A DNA stretch of 64,000 nt, taken from the NCBI RefSeq assembly GCF_012913485.1, contig NZ_CP051774.1:1178001-1242000 (forward strand). Reading direction: 5' to 3'. The DNA is from Luteolibacter luteus (GTDB lineage Bacteria; Verrucomicrobiota; Verrucomicrobiia; Verrucomicrobiales; Akkermansiaceae). A program made the translations under genes and the position numbers. Of this stretch, positions 35,159-53,747 are shown in pieces (positions within the stretch are counted from its first letter, which is position 1; every line of letters begins with the position of its first letter). The notes under the pieces were generated by a model. That model ran no database searches and was not told the DNA's origin. It saw only the letters and a list, made by a program, of their open reading frames with translations.

Positions 35159-35174
35159 TCGATTCGCCAAATTC

Positions 35175-35210: not shown

Positions 35211-35225
35211 AAACTTTCCCCTTTT

Positions 35226-37049
35226 ATGGAAGGCCTCAAGCAGGAATTGGATGTCATCGCCGACTCAGATGTAGAATTCCGCTGCGAAACGATTTACTTT
35301 CTGGTCCTAGACCGCTTCGCCATCGGCACGCCGGACAAGCAGCGTATCGAACCAGACGACATGTTCGACTCCACTCACCTGGAGTGGAACAAATACTGGG
35401 GCGGTGATCTTCAAGGCCTGATAGACCAGCTCGACTATCTCCGCTCCTTTGGCGTTTCCGCCATTTGGACTACTCCCCTTTTCGAGCAGGTCCGCGCGAT
35501 GACAACGGGGGACTCCGCGCCGCGAGCCCCGATCCATGGCTACTGGACCAGCGATTTCAAGCGGATCAATCCACGCTGGATGAACGACCCCTCCGAAAAG
35601 CGGCTCTTTACACGCGATGATACCGTTTTCGACTCGCTGCTCCGGGAGATGCACGCGCACGACATGCGCTTTATACTCGATATTGTCTGTAACCACAGCT
35701 CCCCAGAAACGGGGGAGGGCAAGGGAAAGCTCTACGATGACGGAAAGCTGATCGCCGACTTCGATCACGACGAAGACCACTGGTATCACCACTACGGGAC
35801 CACCACGGACTGGCACGACGAGTGGCAGGTCCAGAACTGTGAGATCGGTGGCTTGGCAACCTTCAATGAGAATAACATCCGCTATCGAAACCACATCAAG
35901 GAAGCGGTTAAAATGTGGATCGGAAAAGGCGTGGATGCCCTGCGCATCGACACGGTCAAGCATATGCCCCTCTGGTTCTGGCAGGAGTTCACCTCTGACA
36001 TCGGTGCGGTGAATCCCAACGTTTTTCGATTCGGCGAGTGGATCAATAGTCATCCGGAGAACCAGAAGTCGGTTGAATTCGCCAACTCAGCCGGAATGAG
36101 CATCCTTGATTTCGGCTTCTGCCTCGGCGCTCGTCTCAGTTTCACCACCGAGCAGGGTTTCCCCGCACTGACGGCCATCCTTGATCAGGACGCGAACTAT
36201 TCCTGTCCCACCGAGTTGGTGACATTTTTCGAGAACCACGACATGCCACGCCTTCAATCAGAAGGCGTATCCGATAGACAGCTGGAACTCGCGCTAGTGC
36301 TTCTTCTCACCTCGCGCGGCATTCCCTGCCTGTACTATGGCTGCGAACAATACCTGCATAACGACACCGAGGGCGGGGAGGATCCATACAACCGCCCCAT
36401 GATGGAATGCTGGGGTGAAACACCGGCTCGCCGCCTGATCGGAATCCTCGCCACTGAACGCCGACATAATCAAGCGATCCAAGTCGGAGGCCAATGGACG
36501 AAGTGGGTGGACGAGAATACTTATATTTACCTGCGGCGCTATCGCGAGAGCCGCTGCCTGGTAATCTTGAACAAGGGCGCGGAACGAAAGATTGAAGTTG
36601 AAAACCTAGACTTCCCGGACGGAGAGCACACCTGCCTGATCAGCGGGGAGAAGGTGATAATTCGCGGAGACAAGGCGTCCCTCCAGCTAGGCGCCGAGGC
36701 GGCACTCGTGATCACCAGACAAGCCCCGCACGTTGAGGGCAAAAGCGTCGTCAGACTCTTGGTAAATGGAGCCCCAACCCAGCCGGGAGACCGTCTGGCG
36801 GTCATCGGCGATTGTAGCGAACTGGGCTGCTGGGACCTCCAGCATGCCTGGGACTTGGAATGCGTGAATGGCAATTGCTGGTTTGGCGAATTGGCTTTCA
36901 ACGAAAGCGCTGGCTCGCTCGTCGGCTACAAGCTTGTGATCTTCCGTGCAACGGAAGGCCGCCCCCCTATTCGCGAGAACCGCACGGTCCGGCGTAGATT
37001 GATCTTATCCTCCGGCTATACCAAGTGGCGGGACCAGTGGGAGGAATGA
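35226..37049 (+). CDS. GH13 alpha-amylase family enzyme with C-terminal CBM20-like domain
   Basis: 607 residues from the ATG at 35226; the frame extends upstream through the terminator hairpin, which is not coding. The GH13 triad is intact: nucleophile Asp about 242 in DALRIDTVKH, acid/base Glu about 271 in FRFGEWINS, and Asp about 339 in FFENHDMPR. DIVCNHSSPE is region I. The last roughly 100 residues (VRLLVNGAPTQPGDRLAVIG, GCWDLQHAW, YKLVIF) look like a CBM20 starch-binding domain. Overall similar to cyclodextrin/maltogenic-type enzymes. No signal peptide, so it probably acts on glycogen or maltodextrin in the cytoplasm, linking the stress operons to storage-carbohydrate use. Confidence 0.9.
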   Translation: MEGLKQELDVIADSDVEFRCETIYFLVLDRFAIGTPDKQRIEPDDMFDSTHLEWNKYWGGDLQGLIDQLDYLRSFGVSAIWTTPLFEQVRAMTTGDSAPRAPIHGYWTSDFKRINPRWMNDPSEKRLFTRDDTVFDSLLREMHAHDMRFILDIVCNHSSPETGEGKGKLYDDGKLIADFDHDEDHWYHHYGTTTDWHDEWQVQNCEIGGLATFNENNIRYRNHIKEAVKMWIGKGVDALRIDTVKHMPLWFWQEFTSDIGAVNPNVFRFGEWINSHPENQKSVEFANSAGMSILDFGFCLGARLSFTTEQGFPALTAILDQDANYSCPTELVTFFENHDMPRLQSEGVSDRQLELALVLLLTSRGIPCLYYGCEQYLHNDTEGGEDPYNRPMMECWGETPARRLIGILATERRHNQAIQVGGQWTKWVDENTYIYLRRYRESRCLVILNKGAERKIEVENLDFPDGEHTCLISGEKVIIRGDKASLQLGAEAALVITRQAPHVEGKSVVRLLVNGAPTQPGDRLAVIGDCSELGCWDLQHAWDLECVNGNCWFGELAFNESAGSLVGYKLVIFRATEGRPPIRENRTVRRRLILSSGYTKWRDQWEE

Positions 37050-37137
37050 GCGCGAGCCCGATGCCTTCCCTCGACCGCCGTAGCCCGTGCATTTCCTTCA
37101 TGGCACCCGCATTCTGCATCCCCTGGGCAAGTAATCC

Positions 37138-37554
37138 TCAGGCAAGGTGATTGCGAAATTTCTGGGGAAATCGTTCATCAGCCATGATCTGCGGGAGTTC
37201 CTCCACATGGGTGGAGACGGCTGCAGCGATCAATTTGCGCGCATCTTGATCCCGCCCCTGTTTGCAGGCTTCTGCAGCCAACGCGTGGAAAGCACTAGCC
37301 GCTTCTTTCCGGTCTGCTTCATTGCCATGCCGAAGAGCAAGAGCCAGGTCCAGAGCGCGCTGCCATTTGCCCAGAGCCGCAGCGGCCTTGACGGTGGCCC
37401 GCTTGGCAGCATTCGCCTGACGCATCTCTTCCGGCAAGCGATCAAGGATCTCCAGCGCTTCCCTATACATTCCGAGCTCAATAAGATCGGCGGCGCTCTG
37501 GATGTTTCGGCCGAGGGAGGAAATCGCGGGAGTATCAATCGTCATGCTCTTCAT
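37138..37554 (-). CDS. Small TPR-like protein
   Basis: 138 residues from ATG 37554 (ATG 37545 is an alternative). Helix pairs NIQSAADLIELGMYREALEI, KAAAALGKWQRALDLALAL and AASAFHALAAEACKQGRDQD resemble TPR repeats. The upstream extension of the frame is not protein-like. It is divergent from the sorbosone-dehydrogenase-like gene. Function unknown, probably protein-protein binding. Confidence 0.6.
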   Translation of the reverse strand: MKSMTIDTPAISSLGRNIQSAADLIELGMYREALEILDRLPEEMRQANAAKRATVKAAAALGKWQRALDLALALRHGNEADRKEAASAFHALAAEACKQGRDQDARKLIAAAVSTHVEELPQIMADERFPQKFRNHLA

Positions 37555-37687
37555 GGAATAGGCACCCTTCCGCCGCGAACAACTGGTCCGCAAGGGACTT
37601 TTGCACCCTCCTGAGAATTGAGTCCGCAAAAGTCGACAAAACCACCCGGTCCTCTTTTTGGCATTCCGCGAGCAAAGACCCGGTTCC

Positions 37688-38869
37688 ATGCGCCATTCCA
37701 TTTCTTTCCTGTTCTTCCCTCTGCTTGCCACCGCCGCCGAGAAACCTACCACTTCCAGTATTACGGGAAATATCTTCCGGCCGGTGCAACTTGAGGCGAG
37801 CGAAGCCCGCATCGGCAAGCTAAAGCTTGCCGATGGCTTCAAGCTCTCCGTCTTCGCACGGAATCTCGGGGCACCACGCATGATGGCAAACTCTCCCGCC
37901 GGAGGAGTCTACGTCACGCGGCGGGGCGAGAAAGGCGACCTCCTTCTGTTGCAAGACACGAACAAGGACGGTGTGGCCGAAAGCAACCGCTCGATTCTAA
38001 AGCTTCCACACATCCACGGTATCGCGGTCAGAGGAGATACGCTTTTTCTCACGACCATCCGGGAAGTCTATACGACAACAATTGGCGATGAGGGAAGCAT
38101 CGGCGAATTGAAGAAGCTCTACGACGACCTACCCGATGCGGGCCAGCACCCGAACCGGACGATGGCATTCAGCCCAAAGGGCGAACTATTCCTTTCCGTA
38201 GGCAGCACGACAAATTCCGCGGCTGAACCCAATCCGGAAAGCGCCACACTTCTCAAAATCGATCCCCGTGGAGGAAAGCGCACCATCTTCGCGAAAGGTC
38301 TCCGCAATACGATCGGTTTCGCTTGGCATCCCGAAACCGGAAAGCTCTACGGCATGGACCATGGCATCGACTACCTGGGCGATGAGATTCAGAGAGAGGA
38401 GCTCAACGAGCTAAAGGAGGGCATGAACTACGGCTGGCCGTTCGTTTACGAAGAGGGGAAGCCGAACCTCGAAGACGACCCCAAGGAAACCACAGGGATG
38501 ACTTGGGAGGAATATGCAAAGACCTGCGAACCCAGCATCCTAACAGCCACCGCCCACAGCGCGCCCATGGCCTTGCTCTTTCCTTCCAAAGCGCAATTCC
38601 CCGCTGACTTCAGCGGCGACGCACTGGTGACCTTCCACGGGTCATGGAATCGCGCAGAACCGACCGGCTACAGCGTGATGCGCCTGCGATTCAAGGACGG
38701 CGAACCCGTCGCATTCGAGAACTTCCTTAGCGGATTCATCGAAGGCGACGGCCAGTTCGGTCGTCCTTGCGGACTACTCGAACGACCGGACGGCTCGATT
38801 CTCATCAGCGATGACGGTGCCGGCATGATCTATCGAATCACTCATGCCGGCCCGGATTCCGCGGAGTAA
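37688..38869 (+). CDS. Secreted sorbosone/glucose dehydrogenase-like beta-propeller protein
   Basis: 393 residues from ATG 37688 with a short signal peptide (ISFLFFPLLATAAE). The propeller pattern of the PQQ-dependent soluble glucose/sorbosone dehydrogenase family is seen: LADGFKLSVFARNLGAPRMM near the start, LPHIHGIAV, PNRTMAFSPKGELFLSVGST, GLRNTIGFAWHP, MNYGWPFVYEE, and HSAPMALLF with FHGSWNRAEPTGY. It probably oxidises a sugar in the periplasm with PQQ, though several family members do not act on sugars. Confidence 0.85.
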   Translation: MRHSISFLFFPLLATAAEKPTTSSITGNIFRPVQLEASEARIGKLKLADGFKLSVFARNLGAPRMMANSPAGGVYVTRRGEKGDLLLLQDTNKDGVAESNRSILKLPHIHGIAVRGDTLFLTTIREVYTTTIGDEGSIGELKKLYDDLPDAGQHPNRTMAFSPKGELFLSVGSTTNSAAEPNPESATLLKIDPRGGKRTIFAKGLRNTIGFAWHPETGKLYGMDHGIDYLGDEIQREELNELKEGMNYGWPFVYEEGKPNLEDDPKETTGMTWEEYAKTCEPSILTATAHSAPMALLFPSKAQFPADFSGDALVTFHGSWNRAEPTGYSVMRLRFKDGEPVAFENFLSGFIEGDGQFGRPCGLLERPDGSILISDDGAGMIYRITHAGPDSAE

Positions 38870-38872
38870 GCC

Positions 38873-39583
38873 TCAGCGCTCCTTCGCTTCTGCCGCCGCC
38901 TCCGCTTCGATGATCTTGCGGTTCTCCGGGATCACCTTGAAGTCAATTTCGCCAGGGCCGCCAGTTGTTGACGGCACAACGATTACCAGTTCGCGAACGT
39001 CAACGTTGTGCTCCCATACGGCGGAGTAGAGCACATTCGCCGGCTTGTCCTTCATCGCCGCCTGCACACTCACGTTGCGTGTCGTCCCGCCCGGATCGAT
39101 GTCGATCGGAGACCAGACAGAAGGCAGCTCTGCGACCTTCGTGTCCACCTTGATCAATGCCACCTTGCCGGTGGCATTGAGAACGCGGATCGAGCCCCAC
39201 TTGAAGTTGGCCGTGTTGTCCTCGATGACATAAGGCCGCACACCCGTGGGATGCTTCGGATCGGGGATGATCAAGACGAGGGGAGACTTGAGATCGGCCG
39301 GCAGCTTGATGTCGACGGAGAGCGGCTTGCCCTGAGGATCCTTCTTGTCGAGAGCAACGATCTGCGGAGGGGTCTCCCCCGTCACGTTGACTGCCTTGGT
39401 GCGTTTTAGCGGATGTAGGCCCTTCAACTCTTCCACCTTCTCGCCGTACTTCAGCCCGAGCTTCCGCGTTGCCATGGCATCATCCCAGGCAAGGAAACGG
39501 AAAGGGGCGGCAGAAAGCGAACCGTTAAGAAGAAGCAGGGCGAGAACTGCAGTAGCAAACGAGGATCGGCGGTGCAAAGGCAT
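38873..39583 (-). CDS. Secreted protein of unknown function
   Basis: 236 residues with a signal peptide (LALLLLNGSLSAA). The body has beta-rich stretches and a conserved-looking Lys/Asp-rich core, with no motif I know. It follows the Verru_Chthon-like giant on the same strand, 24 bases after its stop, so the two are probably co-transcribed and may act together in an envelope-associated assembly. Confidence 0.7.
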   Translation of the reverse strand: MPLHRRSSFATAVLALLLLNGSLSAAPFRFLAWDDAMATRKLGLKYGEKVEELKGLHPLKRTKAVNVTGETPPQIVALDKKDPQGKPLSVDIKLPADLKSPLVLIIPDPKHPTGVRPYVIEDNTANFKWGSIRVLNATGKVALIKVDTKVAELPSVWSPIDIDPGGTTRNVSVQAAMKDKPANVLYSAVWEHNVDVRELVIVVPSTTGGPGEIDFKVIPENRKIIEAEAAAEAKER

Positions 39584-39606
39584 GTCAGTCTTGCTAGGGT
39601 TTCGGT

Positions 39607-42600
39607 CTATGCCCCGGCGCTCTTGGGTTGGGCTTCCGGCCGAGGGATCTGCCGGAACGATACAATCTCAAACCGGCGCCCGAAATTCTGATTCACCGGA
39701 GAGAGGTCTGCAATCGCCGAATAGGAAGGATCGTTCGGATCAAGAAAATCCGGCACGCGCTGGACCACAGCCTCGCACCACGCGCGGGCAAGCACCTTGC
39801 CGTCCTTGTCCTTGGCCTCACCGTAGCCACGGATGGTGAAGGTATCCGAACGACAGGTGATCACGGGAGCCAGGGACTGCAGCACGTCTGCCTGGGTCAG
39901 GTAGCCGGGAATGCCCACTCCGGTATCATTCACGATGTGAGTCCGCGCTTCCGCCGGATAATTCACCGTTTGGAAGGTCGCCTGCTTCGCGCCGGTGTTG
40001 AAGCCAGCCTTATCGATGGCGGATTGGATCGCACCGCTGCGCCCGAGGTCCGAGGTCTCGATGCGTCGGTTGATAAACTCTGAAAGCGAGAGGAAAGGAC
40101 CACGAAGGCGCACTTGATCCACGATGTTTTGCGCCAACTCGCGGATCTGGCCGTCGCTCAAAGTGCGGAAACCGTTCCAGTTCCCATCTGCTCCCTTGGA
40201 AGGATTGCGGAAGCGAGGGAAGGCAGTTTCCGAGGATGGGCTTGAGCCCCCGCTATCCAGATCGAACTTTTGGCCCCGCATGCCGGAAAGCAGCGCTGTC
40301 CAAGCGTCCACATCGGTGGAGTTCACATTGAAAGCTCCATCGACCATCAGGTGACCGGCGATTTTCACGCAGCCGGAGGGTTCCAGAAGGTCGTCTGCCA
40401 ATTGCTCAGCCTGTGCGCCTCCAAGGTAGAGGCGCATCCGGGGATTCGCGAGAGGCTTGTTCATCGGATCTTCGACGAAGTTTTCGACGACCGACTTGAG
40501 CGAGCGGGATTCACGCGCCACCGGATTGTCCCAAGCCGTGGCGATGTTCGGGCGAGTGCCTGGAGAAAGCTCCGGAGCGGCACCGCTGAAGAAATAGCCA
40601 TCCCAGAGGGCTTCATTCGTCAGGAAACAGACATCATAGACCGGCACCGAAGACTGGACACCCGAGGGCTGGATACGGGTGGCGGCGCGGTTGCGGCCCA
40701 GCCAAGCAGAGGCCCAGCTGTTTGCGAATTGGTTTGCCGGTGCATAGGGTGAAGGCGCGAGGTCCGCATTCTGGAAATTCGCCAGCGAAAGCATCGGCTG
40801 GCGCGGCAGGTCGAAGAATGGCAACACCGACTTGCCGGAGGCAGTGTGCGAATTTCCCCAGAAGGAATTGCGTCCATCGCCCGTCGTCTGGACAGCACCG
40901 TTAAAGGAGGTCACCGCCCGGAGCGTAGTCTGGTAGTGAGGCGCAGCCTTAAAGTTGCCAGGTGCAAGCAAGTGCGTGATCGAGGGATTGCGAGGGTTCG
41001 TGGTGTAGACCAGGTCCGCCACCGCTTGGCCGCCGACATTGTCAATCGCAGTGCGATGAAAGGACTCCAGCACGCCAAAGGGAACCGCTTTTCCCGCCTG
41101 CAACTCGGTGAGTGAAATGTTCGGGGAAATCACCTTGTTCGCCGTGGAGACGAAATTGAGCATTTGCACGTCTCCCGTCGCCTGTCCGCCTTGAGCGTTC
41201 TCGTCAACGGCGGTCTTGATGCGGGTGGCATCTTCCAAGGTCATGAAGAAGTGGTAGGAACCGGTGCTGCTCTCGCGCACTTCCACCTGTGCAGTCTCCC
41301 CGCTTGTCATGACATAGTCGAAACCACCCGGATTCATCGGAACCTGCAGTCCACCCTTGGTGGTAAATTGATTGGCGTCATTCACCGGCCGCATCCGGAC
41401 CACCTTGGTGTCCAATTTATTGTCCCGAACGAAGGGAACTGGAACATCCGGATTGGCAGGTGCGAACACGCGGACCTCACCGGGCTCGAAACGGATCGGC
41501 GTCGTGGTGGCGTTGCCTCCTCCTTCAGTAAGCTGACACAGGAAGTAGGGATTGATCTGACGACCGTGACCCACGGATTGGAATTGCTTGCCCATGATCT
41601 GGGACATCGCCGCCTCCTTCACATTCGTTGTCGTTCCCTTGGTGAAGGTCCATTTGACTTGGAACGGGACATCGATCCACGGATAGGCCACGGCACCTTC
41701 GATCTCCAAGGCCGTATTATAAGGATTCCACAACGAGATGATCGGGGTCATCACCAATCGCGGCTTGCCGTCAAAGCCCACCGCGGCGCTCAGGAGATAA
41801 ACCATCCGGTTGAGCACCGGCTTGATCCCCGTAACCGAGCGGATTCCTCGCACCGAACGGGATGGAGAGGGCTTCGTTCCCGCTGCATTCGTCAGCGTGG
41901 CCGCGGCGTGGTCGATCGCACGCTCCGCTACGGTCGGAGATGCAGCACTACCATACATCCCGTGGGCAATGCGATAATAGGAGCGCAGGTGATCAAAGGT
42001 GGGAACCGCTGCTCCATAGAAGCGCTCCGAAACCGAGGCGACATCGTAGGGGATGATCGCGGTCACGATCGGATTATCCATGCTCGCCAGCGGGCGGAAC
42101 AGGGGCATCTGGCTCTTGAAGGAGTTCGGCACCGCGAAACCCGCCTTGGCCTTCGATCCGCGGAAAGGATTGGGAACATCATCGAGCTTGGACTGCGCGA
42201 ACTGGTTATCGCTAAGCTCGAACCCAAGATTCAGGTCCACCTTGAGTCCGCCGTTTACCGTATCCGTCAGCAGGCCTTCGGAGTGGACGGTATAGCTCTT
42301 CCCGACGCTCGGAAGCTTCGTCTCGTCACTCATGAGATCGCCGTCCAAGCGGATTTGATTCATGGAGATCACCTTGCCGGACCGCTCGTTCCACTGGCCG
42401 TCCGGCTGCTTGAGAGCTTCCGCACCTTCAAGTGAAGGCCGCGGCTGAGCCTGCAGGACCGCATTGTTCGGCAGGTCGGCCAAGGAATCAGGGCCACCCA
42501 CATTCACCTTTGCCTTGGTGTTTTCCTGAGTCACCGCCCATGCCAGAGACCCGGTCCCGGTATCGATCGGCGGAGCCGCGAGGTTGAATCCGTTTTGATC

Positions 42601-43095
42601 CAGCGTGAAGAGCTTGATCCAGTTGGCATCGGCTCCCTTCTCCGCCCACTTCCGGTCGGTGATCGCTATTGGATCCGGCGAGGAAACCAGCCAAGTCCGG
42701 AAGGACGTATCCTTCTGGGTCGTGTAAACCACACCGGAGATCGTTTTGTCGGGCTGGGAAACGAAATTGTGGGTCCAAGAGGTATACGCTCCGACCAAGT
42801 TCGGCTGGGCCGCTTGATCGGAAACAGACGCATCTGCGGTCACCCGGCGGTCATCCCCGGCGTTCTTTTGCAACTGACCGAGGGCCATCAGGACCGCCAG
42901 CCGCGCATTTCCGTAGGCCTCAGCTTGGGCATCCTCGGTGCTCGACGACCGCAGCGAAACTGAGCTGAGGGTCAATAGCCCCACCGCCAGAACGGTAAGC
43001 AGGACCATCAGGGACAAGCTGATAACGAGGGCGAAGCCGCGCGACTTCGCGTCTAGAATCCTTTTCCAAAAGGAAAAACGACGGTTGGATCTCAT
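39607..43095 (-). CDS. Large pilin-like-N-terminus protein resembling Verru_Chthon cassette protein A
   Basis: 1162 residues. The start MRSNRRFSFWKRILDAKSRG then FALVISLSLMVLLTVLAVGL is a type IV pilin-like (PilX-like) N-terminus, with a prepilin-peptidase-type G-F junction at about 20-21. The rest is a long low-homology region, with segments such as SLAWAVTQENTKAKVNVGGP and ARNLVDQVRL-like helices (the ending lacks any membrane anchor). Overall size and layout match the Verru_Chthon cassette protein A family that is restricted to Verrucomicrobiota. Its usual small pilin-like partners (B, C, D) are not visible here. Assignment rests on memory of the family architecture. Confidence 0.7.
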   Translation of the reverse strand: MRSNRRFSFWKRILDAKSRGFALVISLSLMVLLTVLAVGLLTLSSVSLRSSSTEDAQAEAYGNARLAVLMALGQLQKNAGDDRRVTADASVSDQAAQPNLVGAYTSWTHNFVSQPDKTISGVVYTTQKDTSFRTWLVSSPDPIAITDRKWAEKGADANWIKLFTLDQNGFNLAAPPIDTGTGSLAWAVTQENTKAKVNVGGPDSLADLPNNAVLQAQPRPSLEGAEALKQPDGQWNERSGKVISMNQIRLDGDLMSDETKLPSVGKSYTVHSEGLLTDTVNGGLKVDLNLGFELSDNQFAQSKLDDVPNPFRGSKAKAGFAVPNSFKSQMPLFRPLASMDNPIVTAIIPYDVASVSERFYGAAVPTFDHLRSYYRIAHGMYGSAASPTVAERAIDHAAATLTNAAGTKPSPSRSVRGIRSVTGIKPVLNRMVYLLSAAVGFDGKPRLVMTPIISLWNPYNTALEIEGAVAYPWIDVPFQVKWTFTKGTTTNVKEAAMSQIMGKQFQSVGHGRQINPYFLCQLTEGGGNATTTPIRFEPGEVRVFAPANPDVPVPFVRDNKLDTKVVRMRPVNDANQFTTKGGLQVPMNPGGFDYVMTSGETAQVEVRESSTGSYHFFMTLEDATRIKTAVDENAQGGQATGDVQMLNFVSTANKVISPNISLTELQAGKAVPFGVLESFHRTAIDNVGGQAVADLVYTTNPRNPSITHLLAPGNFKAAPHYQTTLRAVTSFNGAVQTTGDGRNSFWGNSHTASGKSVLPFFDLPRQPMLSLANFQNADLAPSPYAPANQFANSWASAWLGRNRAATRIQPSGVQSSVPVYDVCFLTNEALWDGYFFSGAAPELSPGTRPNIATAWDNPVARESRSLKSVVENFVEDPMNKPLANPRMRLYLGGAQAEQLADDLLEPSGCVKIAGHLMVDGAFNVNSTDVDAWTALLSGMRGQKFDLDSGGSSPSSETAFPRFRNPSKGADGNWNGFRTLSDGQIRELAQNIVDQVRLRGPFLSLSEFINRRIETSDLGRSGAIQSAIDKAGFNTGAKQATFQTVNYPAEARTHIVNDTGVGIPGYLTQADVLQSLAPVITCRSDTFTIRGYGEAKDKDGKVLARAWCEAVVQRVPDFLDPNDPSYSAIADLSPVNQNFGRRFEIVSFRQIPRPEAQPKSAGA

Positions 43096-43106
43096 GGGTT
43101 TGGGTT
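43096..43106 (-). promoter_or_regulatory. AACCCAAACCC leader motif directly before the Verru_Chthon-like gene
   Basis: Read on the minus strand the 11-mer directly abuts the ATG (43093-43095). A related AAACCCAAACC lies at 43165-43175. See the matching sites at 12899 and 13747. Confidence 0.3.
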
Positions 43107-43658
43107 TTCCAGGTGGGTACCGGCGATGCTTGACGCATCGTCATAAGGGTTACGTCGCGACGGCGGTTTGGGTTTAGTGCTTAATAATGCACTCGGTATT
43201 TCGAATGGCAATACAAAGGAAATACCTAGTACTTCTATAATTTCCAAAATCTCCTGTATGACACAAGTTCCCGGAACCCGGGTCTTCACCTCGAAAGCAA
43301 GACGGAGAACTGAACCAGAGAGGAGTCCTCCGCAGAATGCCGGAAGGCATCATCGCTAGTGTGCACTGAAGAAACGGTCCAAATACGACGCCTTGGCTTT
43401 CAGTGGTCAAAATAGCTACCACACGCAAATTGATCTATCAACCTCGTTTTTATCGACTTAAGGACGACGCCGTCACCGTTTTAGCGAGATCAAGTTTGGG
43501 GAGGCCCTTTGGTTTCCGCAGGGTCAGCGAGCCCGGACAAAGGGCTGCCAACGGATAATGTCCGATTTTACCCCCGTATTCGCCAGCGAATCTCTGCAAC
43601 TGCTTTAGCCGCAGAATTGATACTTTAAAATTAGCCCCTTTGGTGACAGGGAAAAGCC
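43107..43658. other. Long AT-richer intergenic region between divergent genes
   Basis: About 550 bases between the Verru_Chthon-like gene (minus) and the ethylene-receptor-like kinase (plus). It is visibly lower in GC than its surroundings, and no open frame in it looks protein-like. It probably holds two promoters; a GGAACCCGGGTTCC-like core near 43272 gives GGAACCCGGG. An unannotated small RNA is possible. Confidence 0.4.
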
Positions 43659-44783
43659 ATGGACAGTCCGCTGGCGGGGATCGGGCAACTCTTTGACACT
43701 TCAGATTTTCCGGCTCGGTGGAATTGCGGCAATTGGAGCCCGGTCCATGGCTGGTTCCACATCCTTTCGGATCTGGCAATTGCGGGAGCCTATTCAATGA
43801 TCCCCCTGGCGCTGGCCACTTACTGGTGGGTGAAACGCTCGGAACTCGCCTTCCCCCGCCTCTTCTGGCTCTTCGCCGCCTTTATTTTCAGTTGCGGTAG
43901 TACCCACTTGATCGAGGCGGTGATTTTCTACGAGCCGGTTTACCGCTTCTCAGCCTTGATGAAGGTCGTCACCGCTTTGGTGTCTTGGTGCACGGTCTTC
44001 ACGCTTTTTCGCGTGGCACCAAAGGCCTTGGAACTCCCGGGCCTTCAGCGGGTCAATACAATGCTTCAGGAACAATTGACCGTCACCAAGCATGCCGAAG
44101 AGGCCTTGGAGCGGAGCAACCGTGACTTGAGCGCTTTCACCGGGTTGGTAACTCATGACCTGAGAAACCCGCTGAACAGTGCGGTCTTCGTCACCGAGAT
44201 GGCGAAGGAGTCCATCCAACGAGGCGACAGCGAACAGATTCCCCATCTCCTCGACAAAGCCCTGGCTTCGCTGAGACAGATGGAGGCCTTGGTCCGGGAG
44301 CTTCACGCGGAGTCGATGGTCCGAAGCGTCTCAGGCGAAATGGGCGTGGTTCCCCTCAGTGGTGTGATCGAGTCCGCGCGCCTGAATCTCGCTCCCCTGA
44401 TCGAGCGCTCTGGCGCACGGATCGAAGCGGAAGCGCTTCCCGAAGTCCGGGGGAATCGAACCATGTTGGTTCAGCTCTTCATCAATCTGCTGGAAAACTC
44501 GATCAAATACCGGCGCGAAGAGGCGCCAAAAATCCGCATTGAGGCCAGTCAAACTCCGGACAGCACCAAGATCCGGGTAACGGACAATGGAATGGGAATC
44601 CCCGGGGACCAACTTGCCTTGATCTTCGAGTCCGGATTCCGTGCTGAAAATTCCGGGGGCATTCCGGGCAGCGGACTTGGCTTGGCTTTTTGCCGGAAGA
44701 TCATGGAGGCCCATGGCGGTGAAATCTCCGCAACCAGCCCCTCCCAAGGGGGAGCCACGATCGATCTGGTTTTCAAAGCCTAG
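43659..44783 (+). CDS. Sensor histidine kinase with an ethylene-receptor-like N-terminal domain
   Basis: 374 residues. Three membrane helices at about 32-120 form a domain strikingly like the plant ETR1 ethylene-binding domain: Asp 38, Tyr 45, Pro 49, Ile 76, Cys 79 and His 83 keep the spacing of ETR1 Asp25, Tyr32, Pro36, Ile62, Cys65 and His69, in the context SDLAIAGAYSMIP and FIFSCGSTHLIE. The Cys and His coordinate copper in ETR1. Then comes a coiled linker and a HisKA domain (THDLRNPL, His about 166), followed by the N-box NLLENSIKY, G1 DNGMGIPGD and G2 GSGLGLAF. No response regulator is adjacent. It is followed by an ECF sigma/FecR/surface-protein run. Confidence 0.9.
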   Translation: MDSPLAGIGQLFDTSDFPARWNCGNWSPVHGWFHILSDLAIAGAYSMIPLALATYWWVKRSELAFPRLFWLFAAFIFSCGSTHLIEAVIFYEPVYRFSALMKVVTALVSWCTVFTLFRVAPKALELPGLQRVNTMLQEQLTVTKHAEEALERSNRDLSAFTGLVTHDLRNPLNSAVFVTEMAKESIQRGDSEQIPHLLDKALASLRQMEALVRELHAESMVRSVSGEMGVVPLSGVIESARLNLAPLIERSGARIEAEALPEVRGNRTMLVQLFINLLENSIKYRREEAPKIRIEASQTPDSTKIRVTDNGMGIPGDQLALIFESGFRAENSGGIPGSGLGLAFCRKIMEAHGGEISATSPSQGGATIDLVFKA

Positions 44784-44842
44784 GAGAAAAAACTTCATCC
44801 TGAACTAAACTTTCCAAAGACAGCGGCAGTCTCTGTCGGTCC

Positions 44843-45379
44843 ATGACCCAAGGTGGAGACAATATCGATGAATTCGTGCAGGAATTGACCCGTCATCAGG
44901 TCGATCTCTTCTACTTCATCCGCGCCTTGGCCGGGGATGCCCACGCGGCGCATGATATTCGCCAGATCGTCAATATGGTCCTTTGGCGGAAGCGTGAGAA
45001 ATACCGGCCCGGGAGCAGCTTCAAGGCATGGGCCTTCCAGATCGCCCAGCTTGAGGTGAAGAACCACATGCGGAAACAACGGCGTTCCGTCTTGGTCGCC
45101 TTCGATCACAAGCTGGTGGACATGTTCGCCTCGGAGTTCTCGGACTTTTCCGATGAGCTGCCCGAGCGCCGCCACGCCCTCACCAACTGCCTGCGCAAGC
45201 TGACTCCAAAGGATGAGGAGCTCCTTCGTCATCGATACTGGACCAGCGGCTCCCTCGAATCGCTGGCATTGAGCACGCAGCGCAGCGTCGGCACCTTGAA
45301 GGCCCGCCTGCACCAGTTGCGCGCTTCCCTGCGGAGATGCATCGAACTTCAACTTTACCCCGATAACAATGAAGCCTGA
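44843..45379 (+). CDS. ECF-type sigma factor
   Basis: 178 residues of the same short family as the 8832-9425 product: VLWRKREKYRPGSSFKAWAF with QIAQLEVKNHMRKQRR (region 2) and CLRKLTPKDEELLRHRYWTS with QRSVGTLKARLHQLRASLRR (region 4). It begins 59 bases after the histidine kinase and overlaps the start of the FecR-like gene by 11 nt, forming a cell-surface signalling-like pair with it. Confidence 0.92.
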   Translation: MTQGGDNIDEFVQELTRHQVDLFYFIRALAGDAHAAHDIRQIVNMVLWRKREKYRPGSSFKAWAFQIAQLEVKNHMRKQRRSVLVAFDHKLVDMFASEFSDFSDELPERRHALTNCLRKLTPKDEELLRHRYWTSGSLESLALSTQRSVGTLKARLHQLRASLRRCIELQLYPDNNEA

Positions 45380-46778
45380 CGACGGAACCGAGGACCTGAT
45401 CCACGCGCTGCTCGACGGGACGATCGGGAAGGACGACTTCGCCCGCTTGGAAAAAGTCCTGCTGGAAGATCCGGAAGCACGTCGGAATTACTTCGCCCTG
45501 ATGAGCACCGACCAAATGCTCGTCGACAACTACGAGCTGCCGGATCATCTGGCGATGCACTCGCAGCTCGCCGCGGGGATGGAACCTCCGCGCCGGGCGC
45601 GTTCGTGGTGGATTTGGGGCGGCACCGCGGCGGCAATCTTCATCGCCTTGCTCACCGCTCTACCGCTGATGCTTCACCGGGAGGCACCGCCGGTTACCGT
45701 CTCCGGCTCTGCCGACAGCTATTTCCTGATTGATGGCGTGACGGTAAACGAGGGGAACTGGGGCAAGAAGCAACGCCTCGAAGTCCGAGATGGCGTGGTG
45801 GTGGCCCAGCTCGGCCCGGAAATCACCGCCTGTATCGATGGACCAGCCTCGATCTACCTCGATGAAAACGGGCGCGATCTCGATTTGCGGCGCGGGCGCG
45901 TTTACTTCCGGGTGGCAACGGGAGCGCCAAAGTTCAAGGTTCTAGCGGCCGGTGCCACGATCCGTCACATCGGTACCGAGTTCGGGGTTCGGGCCTCCGA
46001 GGGCGGATCCTGCGAGGTTCACGTGACGGAGGGCATCGTCGAGGTTGACCGCGGCCATCAGAAGGGGAAGTGGACCCTCAAGGCTGGAGATTCCGCGTCG
46101 TGGCTGAATCGCGGAAACACGCGCTTGGACCCGGTGACCGTCACCGATTTCCGCAAGGATCTCCCCGGTGAAACGATGGTTTTCGAGGATGATTTCAGTG
46201 AATCCCCGGACACCCAACTCAAGGGGAAGAGGCCTGATACCGGCAACCCTTGGGAGGTAAAGTCCGAGAAGCAGCCCACCTTGGTTGGGGGTGGAAAACT
46301 GGATACTTCCGGTGGCGCCCGCATCTTGGAAGCACCCTTCCTTCCTGATGGCTCGCCGAATCACCGTCAGGTCGTCCTGATGTCCTTTAGCACACGCCAG
46401 CCCTCGTGGATCTGGGACAAGCAGACTCGCCTCGGCGGTATCGAGAAGATCGCGCTGAAAGCGGCAGACGGCACCCTGATCTGCTCCGTGCAAGCCAGGG
46501 CGAGTGAAGGCCACCGCTGGCGCCTGCGCGACGAGGGCCGCGGGCTGGAGTCGGATTTAACGGGAGTTTCCGCGCTACAGGAGAACGAGCTTACCGTGCG
46601 CTACGATGCACTGGCAGGCAAAATCACGCTCCACGCCGGAACATCCACACAATCCGAACTCATTGCCGAAGTCCCCGCGAGCATGCGCGCCATGCCTGCC
46701 TCGCTGGTGATCTGGAACGATGACGGCGGCGACCTCGCTCTGAAGCGCCTATCCGTCAAGATCGTCGACTATCCCTGA
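45369..46778 (+). CDS. FecR-like transmembrane anti-sigma factor with C-terminal LamG-like domain
   Basis: 469 residues. An N-terminal region of about 75 residues, probably the sigma-binding part, precedes one membrane helix (WIWGGTAAAIFIALLTALPL, about 81-100). The FecR core follows (LRRGRVYFRVATGAPKFKVL, IRHIGTEFGVR, VTEGIVEV, LKAGDSASW). Residues about 270-465 look like a concanavalin-like sandwich (MVFEDDFSESPDTQLKGKRP...). Together with the sigma factor just upstream it is a FecI/FecR-type module, with the surface-protein gene next as a likely target or ligand-sensing partner. Overlap with the sigma gene indicates coupling. Confidence 0.88.
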   Translation: MKPDDGTEDLIHALLDGTIGKDDFARLEKVLLEDPEARRNYFALMSTDQMLVDNYELPDHLAMHSQLAAGMEPPRRARSWWIWGGTAAAIFIALLTALPLMLHREAPPVTVSGSADSYFLIDGVTVNEGNWGKKQRLEVRDGVVVAQLGPEITACIDGPASIYLDENGRDLDLRRGRVYFRVATGAPKFKVLAAGATIRHIGTEFGVRASEGGSCEVHVTEGIVEVDRGHQKGKWTLKAGDSASWLNRGNTRLDPVTVTDFRKDLPGETMVFEDDFSESPDTQLKGKRPDTGNPWEVKSEKQPTLVGGGKLDTSGGARILEAPFLPDGSPNHRQVVLMSFSTRQPSWIWDKQTRLGGIEKIALKAADGTLICSVQARASEGHRWRLRDEGRGLESDLTGVSALQENELTVRYDALAGKITLHAGTSTQSELIAEVPASMRAMPASLVIWNDDGGDLALKRLSVKIVDYP

Positions 46779-46797
46779 GATCTACTTTCCCGGACCC

Positions 46798-46808
46798 AAC
46801 CCGAACCT
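46798..46808 (+). promoter_or_regulatory. AACCCGAACCT motif upstream of the surface-protein gene
   Basis: This 11-mer is 165 bases before the ATG of the repeat protein. It matches the motifs before the genes at 12879, 13739 and 43095 at 9 or 10 of 11 positions. Distance to the start differs between sites. Confidence 0.22.
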
Positions 46809-46973
46809 CCCCTTTCCCTTACGATAGCAAGCCGCAGACGCGACCTGATCTACGGTCTTCCTAGTAACTGAGCCGCCCTTTCCGCGGCCCTTCCCATATC
46901 GCGGTCATTTCCCGCGAAGGACCTCTCGCACGCTCGAAAAGCGTGTTTCACGCAAGAACTACGTACACGACCC

Positions 46974-49900
46974 ATGACCCAAACCCCGAGATCCTCCCGC
47001 AGAAGCACACTGCTTCTCGCCGCACTCTCCTGCTGCTGCAGCGCGGCGTCCGCCACGGAAGCAAACTTCCAGCATTACCGCTTCACTCCGATCAAGCTGC
47101 GGAACGACGCTACCGCAAACAGCATCCAGCTCGCGGAGTTTCAGTTCCTGCATCTTGGCGCGGCGGTTTCATTCACCGGCGCGATCACAAGCAATACGGG
47201 CGGCAGCACTCCCGCGGCTGAGGCTTCGGCAAACCTGATCGATGGAGTAAACACCACCAAGTGGCTCGATTTCTTCCGCAGTTCCGTAACCTTCAGCTTT
47301 TCCGAGCCGACCACGATCGATGGATACCGCTTCACCACCGCCAATGACGCGATCGAACGTGATCCGGTGCGGTGGCTGATCGAAGGCAGCAACGACGAAG
47401 TCACCTGGACCTTGCTGGATCACCGGGATTCAGACTTCGCCACTCCTACCGCCCGAGCCACCAGTTCCGGCGACATCCCCCTCCCTGCCACTCCGCAGCC
47501 TTACGTGAAAAACTGGACCGGCAGCATCGGGGCCAATTGGGACACCATTAATGCAAACTGGAATAACGGCGCCGACCTTGCATGGAACAACGCGAGCACG
47601 GATGTCGCTCGCTTTGGCAGCGGGACACCTTCCTCCATCACGCTTTCCGAGGCAATCTCGGCGCGAGTATTGGAGTTCAATGCTCCGGGCTATCTGATCC
47701 AAGGAAATACCCTCACTTTAACCAATGTCACACGCCTTCGCGGCACCGGGAATGCGGAGATCTCCTCGGTGGTGGCAGGCACGGTAGGTGCGATCAAGAC
47801 CGGCAGCAATGCCATCGCGCTCTCCGGCAACAATACCTTCACCGGACCTTTGCAGGTACGCGGCGGTTCGCTGACACTTAGCGGAACCAATGCCTACGCG
47901 GGAACGACCACGGTTACGGGCGGCGGCACGCTCAGTTTCACCGGTGCGTCGACCAAGGCAAACGGCCTGCTGGAAGTAGGTACGGCCCAAGGAAAGGGCG
48001 TGCTGGATATCGGCGGCACCAGCACCCTGCTCTTCAATGGCACACCGGTGGTCGGCACTGGAGCCGTCACTCCCGGGTCGGGTGCGATTCGCCAGAGCGG
48101 CGGCACGGCCACCTACTCTGTCTCCGGCCAGTATTTCACGCTCGCGAATACCGTTGGCAGCTATGGGACCTATGAGTTGAGCGGCGGCACCATGTCTACC
48201 CCTACCGATTCCGGAATCCGGGTGAGCTGGAACGGACCGGCAGTGCTCACCCAGAGTGGTGGTTCGCTCAGCTCTGGTCGGTGGTTTGCCATCGGTGGCA
48301 CGAACGCGAAGGGAATCGCGACCTTCACCGGCGGCACCGCCACCACGATCGCAAACTACCGCATGATCGCGGGGGACCAGGCCGGTGGCAATGGCACGAT
48401 CAACATTGGCACGGCAGCGGGTGGAAATGCCGTGGTCTCTACAGTCCGCACCGCAACCGGTGCTAATGACGGCTCCTTGACCTTGGCCAATGCCAACAAC
48501 TCCACCGGCACCCTGAACCTGAATAGCGGCACTCTGAAACTTCACGGCCGCATCTATCACCCGACGACCGCCACCGGCACCACGGCACTCGTAAACCTGA
48601 ACGGCGGCACGATCCAAGCCGGCGAGGAGAATGTGGAGCTGGTAAACAGCTCGCTCACCGGGGTGCGAATGTTCCGCGGCGGCGTAACCATCGATACCGA
48701 TGGGAAGGCCGCAACCTTTGCCGCTCAAATCGACGGACAAAGCGACAACGGCATCTACTTCCCCGGCGATAGCCTGTCGGTTCCGCCCCTCGATGGAGGC
48801 AGCGGCTATATCGGGGCACCGATCGTTACCATCAGTACCGACGGTGCGGGCAGCGGCGCGATGGCAGTCGCCAATGTCACCAATGGAGTGGTGACCGGCA
48901 TTACCCTGACCTGTCCAGGCACCGGCTACCAGGCAGGTGACGTCCTGTTCTGCATCTTCGATGCGGGTGGTTTCGATGAGCCCGCGATGCTGCTCGAGCA
49001 CACCCTCACCGCCGGCGAACTGGCATCGAATGGCACCGGCGGTCTGACCAAGGTTGGCGCAGGGACCCTGACCCTGACGCAACCCGCCTCCTTTACGGGT
49101 CCGCTCAACGTGAATGCGGGAACGCTGGTCGCGAACAGTACCTTGGCTCAGACGGCAACCACAGTGGCCGCAGGCGCGACGTTGGGCGGCAGTTTTGTGA
49201 CCGCAGGTCCGGTGACGGTGAATGGCACCCTGGCTCCTGGCACCTCGGTGGGCACGGCAAGCGGAAGTGCCTCGCTTACCTTGGCTGCTGGTTCGACCTT
49301 CGCGGCACAGATAGCCGATTGGAATGGGGTGGCTGGAACGGGCTACGACACAGCTGACTTCGCCAGCGTGAGCATCACCGCCACGAGCGGCAACAAGCTG
49401 ACGGTTCACGTTGATGCCACCGGCTTGACCAACTTCAGTGAAACCGCGCGAGATTTCGTCATCGCAAGCGCCGATTCAGCTCCGGCGGGGCTGAGCGCTG
49501 GGAACTGGCAAGTGAACGCAAGCGGCTTCGCCGGCACCGGAACTTGGTCACTGGCGGTGGATGGGAACAATCTCGTGCTCTCCTACGAGCCAGGTGCCTC
49601 GGGCTACGGCACTTGGATTTCGGGATTTCCCGGTCTTTCCGACAACTCCACAAGTGGCGATCCGGATTGGGATGGGATCTCCAATCTCATGGAATATGCG
49701 CTGAACGGCCAACCGGGCACCTCGTCCACGCAAATTCTGCCGACGACGATCAACGGAGGAGGCAATCTTTCCTTCAGCTTCGTGCGCAGGACCGAGTCGA
49801 AAGGCGACACGACGCAAGTCTTCCAATACGGACCCAATCTCACGGCATGGACCGATGTAGCGATCCCGGCCAGCTCCAGCGGTAATGTGACGATCACTCC

Positions 49901-49997
49901 GGATAGCCCCGGCCCCGGGCTTGAAACCGTCGTGGTCACCGTGGCCAACGAAAGCAACAGCATCTTGTTCGCGAGGCTGAAGGTCACCCTGCCTTGA
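46974..49997 (+). CDS. Large secreted beta-strand-repeat surface protein
   Basis: 1007 residues with a signal peptide ending near SAASATE. Residues about 30-160 look like a discoidin-type domain (LIDGVNTTKWLDFF, VTFSFSEPTTIDGYRFTTAN, WLIEGSNDEVTWTLL). A long PATR-type region follows (GNNTFTGPLQVRGGSLTLSG, NAYAGTTTVTGGGTLSFTG, TLTLTQPASFTGPLNVNAGT), then a 100-residue tail (WDGISNLMEYALNGQPG, ending LFARLKVTLP). There is no PEP-CTERM signal. It follows the sigma/FecR genes 195 bases downstream; the AACCCGAACCT motif at 46798 lies in that gap. Confidence 0.88.
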   Translation: MTQTPRSSRRSTLLLAALSCCCSAASATEANFQHYRFTPIKLRNDATANSIQLAEFQFLHLGAAVSFTGAITSNTGGSTPAAEASANLIDGVNTTKWLDFFRSSVTFSFSEPTTIDGYRFTTANDAIERDPVRWLIEGSNDEVTWTLLDHRDSDFATPTARATSSGDIPLPATPQPYVKNWTGSIGANWDTINANWNNGADLAWNNASTDVARFGSGTPSSITLSEAISARVLEFNAPGYLIQGNTLTLTNVTRLRGTGNAEISSVVAGTVGAIKTGSNAIALSGNNTFTGPLQVRGGSLTLSGTNAYAGTTTVTGGGTLSFTGASTKANGLLEVGTAQGKGVLDIGGTSTLLFNGTPVVGTGAVTPGSGAIRQSGGTATYSVSGQYFTLANTVGSYGTYELSGGTMSTPTDSGIRVSWNGPAVLTQSGGSLSSGRWFAIGGTNAKGIATFTGGTATTIANYRMIAGDQAGGNGTINIGTAAGGNAVVSTVRTATGANDGSLTLANANNSTGTLNLNSGTLKLHGRIYHPTTATGTTALVNLNGGTIQAGEENVELVNSSLTGVRMFRGGVTIDTDGKAATFAAQIDGQSDNGIYFPGDSLSVPPLDGGSGYIGAPIVTISTDGAGSGAMAVANVTNGVVTGITLTCPGTGYQAGDVLFCIFDAGGFDEPAMLLEHTLTAGELASNGTGGLTKVGAGTLTLTQPASFTGPLNVNAGTLVANSTLAQTATTVAAGATLGGSFVTAGPVTVNGTLAPGTSVGTASGSASLTLAAGSTFAAQIADWNGVAGTGYDTADFASVSITATSGNKLTVHVDATGLTNFSETARDFVIASADSAPAGLSAGNWQVNASGFAGTGTWSLAVDGNNLVLSYEPGASGYGTWISGFPGLSDNSTSGDPDWDGISNLMEYALNGQPGTSSTQILPTTINGGGNLSFSFVRRTESKGDTTQVFQYGPNLTAWTDVAIPASSSGNVTITPDSPGPGLETVVVTVANESNSILFARLKVTLP

Positions 49998-50007
49998 TCG
50001 GGAAAAG

Positions 50008-50046
50008 TCCCCGCGCGGGTTCGGGTTTCCGCGCGGGGATGTTTGT
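50008..50046 (+). terminator. Intrinsic terminator after the surface-protein gene
   Basis: TCCCCGCGCGG at 50008-50018 pairs with CCGCGCGGGGA at 50029-50039, loop GTTCGGGTTT; the 3' side continues TGTTTGTG. It closes the sigma/FecR/surface-protein unit. Confidence 0.75.
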
Positions 50047-50127
50047 GTACCTCCCTCGGCACGAGATCGTGTTTGCTAGCGGCGATTCCGCGCGCTACCG
50101 GATAGAACATCGTCTGAAAGGAAGCGC

Positions 50128-51201
50128 ATGGAGAATGCTGGCCCGGATCCGGATCGGAAGTTGTCGCTGATCGATTGCGACGTGCACTGCGTGCCGGTGC
50201 ATGCCTCGGAAATCGTGGACCGGCTGCCGGCCTATTTCCGGACCCAGGGTCTGGTGCTGCCGGGAGGTCCGGGACTGCCCCACCCCACCGGCGTGCGGCG
50301 GGTCGATGCACGCGGGCCGCAGGGCGAACCTGCCGGATCGCTGCCGTCGAAAATGCGCGAGCAACTGCTCGATGCCTACGGAGTGGACTACGCCGTCTTG
50401 ATCGAGGCCAAGATTCTCACAGTGGGTGTACACCCGGACACCCATTTTGCGAACGCGATCGCCAGTGCGCACAATGATTGGATCCGCGAAAAGTGGATCC
50501 CTTCGGATCCACGCTTCCTCGGCAGCATGATCGTGAACCCGCTCGACCCGCTGGCAGCAGCTCAGGAGATCCGGCGAGTTGCGGGATCCGAAAGGATCGT
50601 CCAGATCGCAATGACAAGTGCGGCGCGCATTCCCTTCGGAGACCGCATCTACTGGCCGATCTACGAGGCGGCGTGCGAGGCAGGCTATCCCATCGCCCTG
50701 CATCCCGGCGCGGAGGGCAAGGGCGTGGCCGGGCAGTTCGGTGCGGGCTATCCGTCGAGCTATCTGGAATGGCACACGAATCTGCCACAGGGCTTCATGG
50801 CGCAACTGACCAGCCTGCTGTGCCGTGGGGCGATGAGTCATTTCCCCGATCTGAAGTTCGTGATGGTGGAAGGTGGCTTCGGGTGGGTGCCTCACCTGCT
50901 ATGGCGTCTCGACAAGAACTGGAAGGGTCTGCGCTCGACCGTCCCATGGTTGGATCGGCTGCCGAGCGAGTATGTCTTGGAGCGCGTCCGCTTCACTTCG
51001 CAGCCCGTGGAAGAACCACCTTCGAACGACCAGCTTCTCGAGATGCTGGCGATGATCCAGGCGGAACGAACGCTCATGTTCTCCAGTGACTACCCCCATT
51101 GGGACAATGATTCCCCGCTACGTGCCTTCCCGCGATTGCCGGCAGAGTTGAAAGAGCGGATCTTCTGGAAGAATGCCACGGAGTTCTACGGCCTCCTGTG
51201 A
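50128..51201 (+). CDS. Amidohydrolase-family protein (ACMSD-like barrel)
   Basis: 357 residues. LIDCDVHCVP is the N-terminal metal motif (Asp/His), YPIALHPG carries a later His, and MFSSDYPHWDND holds the terminal Asp. This is the amidohydrolase_2 subgroup that includes decarboxylases of aromatic and heterocyclic acids. A large insertion (GADARGPQGEPAG region, about 65-75) precedes the barrel. Its stop overlaps the start of a Rieske protein gene, suggesting a two-gene degradation unit. Substrate unknown. Confidence 0.85.
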   Translation: MENAGPDPDRKLSLIDCDVHCVPVHASEIVDRLPAYFRTQGLVLPGGPGLPHPTGVRRVDARGPQGEPAGSLPSKMREQLLDAYGVDYAVLIEAKILTVGVHPDTHFANAIASAHNDWIREKWIPSDPRFLGSMIVNPLDPLAAAQEIRRVAGSERIVQIAMTSAARIPFGDRIYWPIYEAACEAGYPIALHPGAEGKGVAGQFGAGYPSSYLEWHTNLPQGFMAQLTSLLCRGAMSHFPDLKFVMVEGGFGWVPHLLWRLDKNWKGLRSTVPWLDRLPSEYVLERVRFTSQPVEEPPSNDQLLEMLAMIQAERTLMFSSDYPHWDNDSPLRAFPRLPAELKERIFWKNATEFYGLL

Positions 51202-51593
51202 TGAACGAGAAGCGTGCGATCACGGTTTGTCCGGCGGCAGAGCTGCCTCCGGGAGAAAGGAAGATCATCGATGCCGGCGACGGCCGCTCGATCGGGATCT
51301 TCAACGTGAAGGGAAAGTACTATGCACTCCGTAATTTGTGCCCGCATGCAGGGGCCGAGCTTTGCCGCGGATTGATCACCGGGATGAACGAGGCATCGGA
51401 AGTCGGTGAGTATCACTGGGTGCGGGAAGGAGAAATCCTTCGTTGCCCCTGGCACGGCTGGGAGTTCGACATCCTGACGGGGCGCTCGATCTTCAACCCG
51501 AACGCGGTGAGGGTGAAGACCTATGAAACCACCGTCGTGGAATCCTTTGAAGTGGGTGTCGATGAAGGCGGGATGGTGGTGGTGATGGTCTGA
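51201..51593 (+). CDS. Rieske [2Fe-2S] ferredoxin-like protein
   Basis: 130 residues from ATG 51201, which overlaps the amidohydrolase stop (TGATG); GTG 51198 is possible. The Rieske cluster motifs are present: CPHAG (about 46-50) and CPWHGW (about 84-89), with the two Cys and two His. It would feed electrons to an oxygenase or act with the amidohydrolase as a stand-alone redox partner; no oxygenase gene is next to it. Confidence 0.9.
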   Translation: MNEKRAITVCPAAELPPGERKIIDAGDGRSIGIFNVKGKYYALRNLCPHAGAELCRGLITGMNEASEVGEYHWVREGEILRCPWHGWEFDILTGRSIFNPNAVRVKTYETTVVESFEVGVDEGGMVVVMV

Positions 51594-51596
51594 ACC

Positions 51597-52223: not shown

Positions 52224-52231
52224 GATCCTTC

Positions 52232-53644: not shown

Positions 53645-53747
53645 GCTGCTGCCTTATTTGAAGAGAGCAGCAGGGAGGCGCAAGGATTGTCGGCGGGCCC
53701 CGCCATTCATCTCACAAACGGGCCGATCATTCCGTTGTCCACGGCGA

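Follow-up and report, generated by a model that had tools for sequence, protein, structure and literature searches.

Does a short histidine kinase from Luteolibacter luteus, a member of the Verrucomicrobiota, sense ethylene? The gene lies at 43659-44783 on the + strand of the window (the whole stretch of 64,000 nucleotides that we analysed; coordinates without a prefix refer to it). A sequence-only reading had described its product as an ethylene-receptor-like histidine kinase and had added that no verrucomicrobial case was known. In the available text of two papers, bacterial ethylene receptors are reported for cyanobacteria and Azospirillum (PMC6682694; PMC11819568). The part of a 2020 viewpoint that was available names proteobacteria and cyanobacteria (PMC7700396), and the available part of PMC11819568 mentions, in general terms, putative ethylene receptors in "other bacterial phyla." We found no paper that names the PVC phyla (Lacey and Binder 2016, Carlew 2019, and Papon and Binder 2019 may list cases). 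A paper on root-associated Verrucomicrobiota that promote plant growth (PMC12753962) mentions neither ethylene nor Luteolibacter in its text.

A compact sensor kinase with an ethylene-receptor-type membrane domain

The open reading frame begins with ATG and encodes 374 amino acids, with an ETR1_N domain, a HisKA domain, and a HATPase_c domain, in that order. A likely ribosome-binding site (AGGGA, 43648-43652, + strand, read from the sequence) lies upstream, with the ATG at 43659 six bases on. This start also fits the related proteins: the six closest matches from the genus align from residue 1-5 onward.

The ETR1_N domain, which is the ethylene-binding type of membrane domain, covers residues 30-126 (43746-44036; PF25487, E = 7e-30). 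It scores 103.6 bits, as compared to a curated cut-off of 27, so the match is not due to chance. Because the cut-off is passed and nearly the whole profile is matched (positions 2-97 of 97), the protein belongs in this domain family. The host genome is a single contig of 6,412,079 bases, and this is its only ETR1_N match at E ≤ 1.

The rest of the protein looks like a kinase. The HisKA dimerisation and phosphoacceptor domain spans residues 158-216 (44130-44306; PF00512, E = 1.3e-9), and a motif search places the predicted phosphoacceptor, His166, in the H box THDLRNPL (44154-44156). The HATPase_c catalytic domain spans residues 266-372 (44454-44774; PF02518, E = 1.9e-23); a HATPase_c_2 match overlaps it, below its own cut-off. 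The H box and the N, G1, F, and G2 boxes are all intact, so by its sequence the protein qualifies as a two-component sensor kinase. Among the NCBIfam matches, the best 25 of 77 families are kinase models, none of them above its cut-off. Pfam found no GAF, PAS, or receiver domain at E = 0.001.

Structure prediction gave a similar picture. The AlphaFold2 model (from a 60-row alignment) has a mean pLDDT of 91.8 and a pTM of 0.64. It has three N-terminal helices, as in the ethylene receptor, and these are predicted to insert in the membrane. TM1 (residues 28-58; 43740-43832) carries D38, Y45, I48, and P49. TM2 (residues 66-88; 43854-43922) carries I76 along with C79 and H83, the predicted Cu(I) ligands. 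TM3 (residues 95-124; 43941-44030) carries K102, T105, and S109. A further helix, at residues 127-187, leads into the kinase. The basic residues K59, R60, and R67 in the loop between TM1 and TM2 would be consistent with the topology of the plant receptors, whose N-terminus is outside the cell membrane.

The best match to a PDB sequence is a histidine kinase entry, 8f71 (E = 2.2e-24), which is described as a bacteriophytochrome kinase domain; the match is confined to residues 149-365 and is uninformative about the input. When the whole model was used in a fold search, the best 50 of 496 matches were histidine kinase entries, and one of these, 8g3a_D (BceS), aligns over 349 columns, so that its match may extend into the membrane helices. 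A solved structure for the sensor domain was also sought, and the candidates were rejected: a profile search of the PDB gave just two hits with E of about 1, and an NADH dehydrogenase subunit accounted for each of them.

The ethylene-binding positions are conserved

The seven ethylene-binding residues of Arabidopsis ETR1 are D25, Y32, I35, P36, I62, C65, and H69. In an alignment with an ETR1 row, the window kinase has the expected residue at all seven positions (D38, Y45, I48, P49, I76, C79, and H83). The codons for D38, P49, C79, and H83 are at 43770-43772, 43803-43805, 43893-43895, and 43905-43907. ETR1's K91 corresponds to K102. The sequence-only reading had named six of the seven residues, all of which are present, and I48 (ETR1's I35) completes the set. 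It had also stated that their spacing matches ETR1. This holds throughout except for one extra residue in the loop between TM1 and TM2, which explains why the numbering is offset by 13 before the loop and by 14 after it. As far as the available text of PMC11819568 and PMC6682694 goes, seven residues are required for ethylene binding. The available part of PMC11819568 names D25, C65, and H69 for ETR1 and reports that mutating C65 or D25 abolishes binding by ETR1.

Three of these positions are more conserved than the domain as a whole. Of 98 aligned domains, 95 retain the Cys, 96 retain the His, and 97 retain the Tyr, as compared to a median agreement of 0.41 between a column and the window kinase. 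(These 98 rows include L124, which is degenerate; L064, which is frame-shifted; and L158.) Also, conserved positions in the domain cluster on one face of each helix (P = 0.0009 for TM1, 0.015 for TM2, and 0.0003 for TM3; permutation test with 95 rows and with helix limits that we set). All nine sequences from the genus (the window kinase, L037, L107-L110, and L155-L157) keep the seven residues.

The degenerate verrucomicrobial sequence (L124:8827-9930) has a sensor in which four of the site's residues (Cys, His, Tyr, and Asp) have been lost. It has a weak HisKA match and a receiver, and no HATPase_c was found in it. It may be a decayed or repurposed copy.

Comparison with known receptors

We also fetched AzoEtr1 from Azospirillum brasilense as an assayed anchor. 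When expressed in Pichia, AzoEtr1(1-130) showed saturable binding of 14C-ethylene, according to the available text of PMC11819568. AzoEtr1 is a 525-amino-acid open reading frame on plasmid NZ_CP012915.1 (our row L172), and its D35, C75, and H79 fall where the available text of that paper numbers them. The window kinase resembles AzoEtr1 in its three-helix domain (48 of 118 aligned residues are identical), in all seven binding residues, and in its histidine kinase output. However, AzoEtr1 has a PAS domain between the membrane domain and the kinase, which the window kinase lacks, and a response regulator gene overlaps the end of AzoEtr1's gene, whereas the window kinase has no such neighbour.

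All seven residues are shared with Arabidopsis ETR1 and the plant receptors, and 34 of 111 aligned residues are identical to the ETR1 sequence used here. ETR1 contains a GAF domain. The window kinase has neither a GAF domain nor a receiver domain, and it differs from ETR1 at the residues that are nearly fixed in its own class (see below).

Like SynEtr1 from Synechocystis and GeiEtr1/2 from Geitlerinema, the window protein is a bacterial kinase with an ethylene-binding-type domain (PMC6682694, in the available text). The same text links SynEtr1 to photoreception, and GeiEtr2 as well on the basis of its domain arrangement. Unlike SynEtr1 (which we compared by description only) and GeiEtr2, the window kinase has no photosensory domain.

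Two classes of the domain

What is new here is that the domains we collected split into two classes, with the window kinase in class B, while AzoEtr1 and the ETR1 sequence used here are in class A. In a first quick tree of 97 domains, the window kinase was in a group of 42 rows (SH-aLRT = 99, branch length 0.77) that come from PVC bacteria, Flavobacteria, Hydrogenedentota, and Melainabacteria, along with unnamed rows. The opposite side held the cyanobacterial and proteobacterial rows and ETR1, together with rows from Verrucomicrobiota and single rows from Pontibacter and Phycisphaerales.

The split was recovered in larger trees. Once plasmid and family rows were added, its support was 100/99, both in a 102-row tree (44 vs. 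58 rows; L181, L122, L185, and L097 omitted) and in a 105-row tree (44 vs. 61 rows; only L181 omitted). If L181, a weak non-member that lacks the Cys and His, is included (106 rows), the 44 class B rows are grouped with support of just 93/63, or 90/88 if L181 is counted among them. The list of class B rows was taken from the first tree, and L173 and L178 were added after the 106-row tree. Four rows were left out of the trees and the class counts: L085, which is broken into two short frames; L158, from a place that L037 already covers; the degenerate L124; and the frame-shifted L064.

The way that the domains were collected affects how this split should be read. The GTDB set was recruited with peptides from the window protein and the plasmid set with the window domain. 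This leaves class A under-sampled and may have missed intermediates. In a 31-row set that did not involve recruitment by window peptides (Verrucomicrobiota rows from profile or whole-protein searches, plus AzoEtr1 and ETR1), the split was again supported (99/99; 20 vs. 11 rows). The branch between the classes is long, at about 0.6 changes per column. Two genomes, G333 and G384, each carry one domain of each class. Overall, the window kinase is in the same domain family as the assayed receptors and in a different class.

Most of class B keeps the site. All seven residues are present in 40 of 44 class B rows, as compared to 30 of 60 class A rows, and the Cys and His are both kept in 43 of 44 vs. 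58 of 60. Class B also has residues of its own that are nearly fixed: G31 (44 of 44 rows), A87 (44), F90 (43), R96 (42), V113 (40), I89 (37), and W110 (35). The commonest class A letters at these positions are V, V, L, W, A, T, and L, respectively. Given the presumed topology, G31, A87, I89, F90, and R96 would sit above C79 and H83, where the helices end on the outer side. Since the seven residues are retained and several class-specific residues would be at the outer ends, class B seems to have kept the core of the site with a different cap. We found no ethylene-binding assay of any class B domain in the literature.

Distribution of the domain

The sequence-only reading had suggested a search for the domain in Verrucomicrobiota. 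We ran this search and found PF25487 matches in 24 of 387 genomes at E = 0.001 (23 of them over the cut-off), at 27 places. Its remark that no verrucomicrobial case was known is borne out to the extent that we found no publication naming one, but a Pfam family exists, these genomes match it, and "other bacterial phyla" are mentioned in the available part of PMC11819568. The novelty is narrower than had been stated, as such kinases are published for cyanobacteria and proteobacteria and the domain is named in Pfam.

Within the family that contains Luteolibacter, 15 of 244 genomes have a match at E = 0.001, and 12 are over the cut-off, including 9 from the genus. Within the genus, 9 of 18 genomes encode an ETR1_N kinase, and the other half lack the gene. 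More broadly, scanning GTDB contigs with peptides from the window protein yielded 70 relatives from 101 candidate stretches, including Planctomycetota, Hydrogenedentota, Chlamydiia, Flavobacteria, Vampirovibrionales, cyanobacteria, Alphaproteobacteria, and a Nevskia. The class B relatives L038-L060 (Planctomycetota, Flavobacteria, Hydrogenedentota, Chlamydiia, Melainabacteria, and unnamed organisms) are 48-65% identical to the window kinase over the best segment.

The domain is present in 18 of 72,556 plasmid records. A phage origin was considered and rejected, because a search of 50,697 phage records (E = 1e-5) gave no matches. Three contigs from the IMG/VR viral collection, which are putatively viral, have small stand-alone ETR1_N-like open reading frames of 127-158 amino acids that keep the Cys and His (L188:2965-3345, L189:2824-3297, and L190:2872-3306). 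No kinase or receiver was found near them in the available stretch, and the L190 contig ends soon after.

Regulators and domain architectures

We used home-made profiles to classify the proteins and considered a receiver gene to be adjacent if it was within 400 nt and on the same strand. (EBD is the ethylene-binding-type domain, HK the histidine kinase, and REC the receiver.) Among 42 class B rows, 14 are EBD-HK alone, 10 have an adjacent receiver gene, 7 are EBD-HK-REC fusions, 4 are fusions that also have a receiver gene beside them, and 7 are kinase-less EBD open reading frames beside a kinase open reading frame. Some of these last 7 may be frameshifts in draft contigs. The 53 class A rows comprise 15 alone, 20 with an adjacent receiver, 13 fused, 2 fused with another adjacent, and 3 kinase-less. 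One row that was scored as EBD-HK alone, L116, resembles a broken fusion: its kinase continues in a different frame, which also encodes a receiver. Outside the genus, 21 of 33 class B rows and 35 of 53 class A rows have a receiver, either fused to the kinase or encoded beside it, as expected if the domain provides input to two-component systems.

The genus is different: none of its nine members, including the window kinase, has an adjacent receiver gene by the same definition, and we describe these as orphan EBD-HK proteins. Nor did the home-made profile find any other receiver or histidine kinase in the 64-kb window. Elsewhere in the genus, L109, L155, and L156 have a hybrid kinase, and L110 has a receiver gene, in each case some kilobases off. 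We considered whether the host genome has an orthologue of the receiver that adjoins the kinase in L111, a member of the family, and rejected the candidates: there were 13 matches, the best at 31% identity (E = 5.8e-11), and several lay within long open frames.

Other neighbours are not shared either. We tried 15 other genes from the window, and none were found in 16 stretches around related kinases (15 places, 9 in the genus). In three relatives from the genus, two small conserved open reading frames are convergent to the kinase (L109:744-1572, L156:7587-8394, and L157:4486-5279). This pair was not found in the window at 34000-54000, and for the L109 pair Pfam gave no match at E = 0.001. In the window itself, the kinase is followed by a run of three genes at 44843-49997. 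They encode an ECF sigma factor that scores above the cut-off for the Rhodopirellula/Verrucomicrobium family, a FecR-type protein, and a large protein that contains PATR repeats and weakly matches F5/8 type C. The protein encoded at 39607-43095 on the - strand resembles Verru_Chthon cassette protein A and GspK of type II secretion at its N-terminus, in both cases weakly and below the cut-off.

Several relatives have other arrangements. A genus member without ETR1_N (G397; L159:8645-11272) has the same kinase core (49% identity), here preceded by GAF and PAS domains, suggesting an exchange of sensors on one kinase. In Maribacter and Gramella (L055:8001-10420 and L059:7974-10397), the class B sensor, instead of being joined to a kinase as in the window protein, is a stand-alone protein of 159 amino acids with a charged tail. 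Next come a separate kinase, whose N-terminal segments are hydrophobic, and a receiver gene, and the three genes make up a clean, split ethylene-receptor-like cassette. In class A, ETR1_N is fused to PAS, GGDEF, and EAL domains at L086:7908-11747 and L097:4890-7220, and so some ethylene-type sensors may act directly on cyclic-di-GMP. As for class B, among eight regulators that adjoin its kinases, L048's is a sigma-54 activator, L038's is a diguanylate cyclase, L056's is a Ser/Thr-kinase-receiver-SpoIIE protein, and the other five are receiver only. Going by these domains, the output of class B kinases is not uniform.

What might the kinase sense?

The description as an ethylene-receptor-like histidine kinase is supported by homology, by the binding residues, by their conservation, and by the comparison with the assayed AzoEtr1. 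Going further, we think that the window protein is probably a Cu(I)-dependent ethylene-sensing kinase of the minimal three-helix ethylene-receptor type. Ethylene is the preferred ligand because the seven residues are retained; the long branch and the changed cap call for caution. We propose that the kinase would work like an ethylene receptor. It would form a dimer and would hold Cu(I) in the membrane by C79 and H83, with D38 and K102 in support. Binding of ethylene to the Cu(I) would shift the helices, and this would alter autophosphorylation at H166. The phosphate would then pass from H166 to a response regulator that is encoded elsewhere, as no regulator adjoins the kinase gene in this genus.

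Several observations do not favour ethylene. Besides the lack of an adjacent regulator, of shared neighbours, and of the gene itself in half of the genus, no ACC deaminase over the cut-off was found in the host genome.

Because the nearly fixed class B residues are close to the site, the ligand could differ. C79 and H83 might bind Cu(I), as is presumed for class A, while the signal, because class B differs on the outer side of the site, is copper itself or another small Cu(I) ligand such as another alkene or CO. The well-supported branch between the classes and the position of several class-specific residues at the outer helix ends would fit this, as would the Cys and His that nearly every class B row keeps. 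But the residues that matter for ethylene are, as a set, retained more often in class B than in class A, which includes AzoEtr1, and there was no copper gene among a sample of 14 other window proteins that were scanned with Pfam. We consider a different ligand to be rather unlikely.

It is improbable that the membrane domain is a structural or redox leftover, with the kinase sensing the state of the membrane, or redox via the Cys, and no ligand at all. The degenerate L124 protein, which lacks the Cys and His, does illustrate that the fold can outlive the site. However, neutral decay would not leave the seven residues in place in every genus member and in all but four class B rows.

A functional tie to the ECF sigma factor and FecR-type gene just downstream (44843-46778), with the kinase controlling that sigma factor, is highly improbable and was rejected: the genes are on the same strand after a gap of 59 bp, no terminator-like site was found in between (so co-transcription is possible), and the sigma factor is over the TIGR02989 cut-off, but tblastn (E = 1e-8) found neither the sigma nor the FecR gene in the stretches surrounding 15 related places, of which 9 belong to the genus. 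Light, which the sequence-only reading had raised as another possible signal, was rejected for a phytochrome- or CBCR-type sensor, as Pfam found no photosensory domain (GAF/PHY or other) in the window kinase at E = 0.001.

Implications

More speculatively, class B may be a second class of copper-site gas receptors, found in PVC phyla, Flavobacteria, and Melainabacteria, with a plant-like Cu(I) core and a remodelled outer cap, that sense ethylene at a different affinity or else another small Cu(I) ligand. If so, the Luteolibacter form would be about the smallest complete one: one membrane domain on one kinase, separated from its regulator.

In the literature that we found, as far as the available text goes, bacterial ethylene sensing has been assayed in a few cyanobacteria and in Azospirillum. 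Class B is from other phyla, and in our sample it keeps the site more often than class A, the class with AzoEtr1. If class B binds ethylene, then ethylene would be a wider bacterial signal than has been assumed. If class B binds something else, then a comparison between the classes would reveal the residues that determine the choice of ligand around a Cu(I) centre. Either way, the window protein, at 374 amino acids and with no accessory domains found, is a simple receptor for testing what class B binds.
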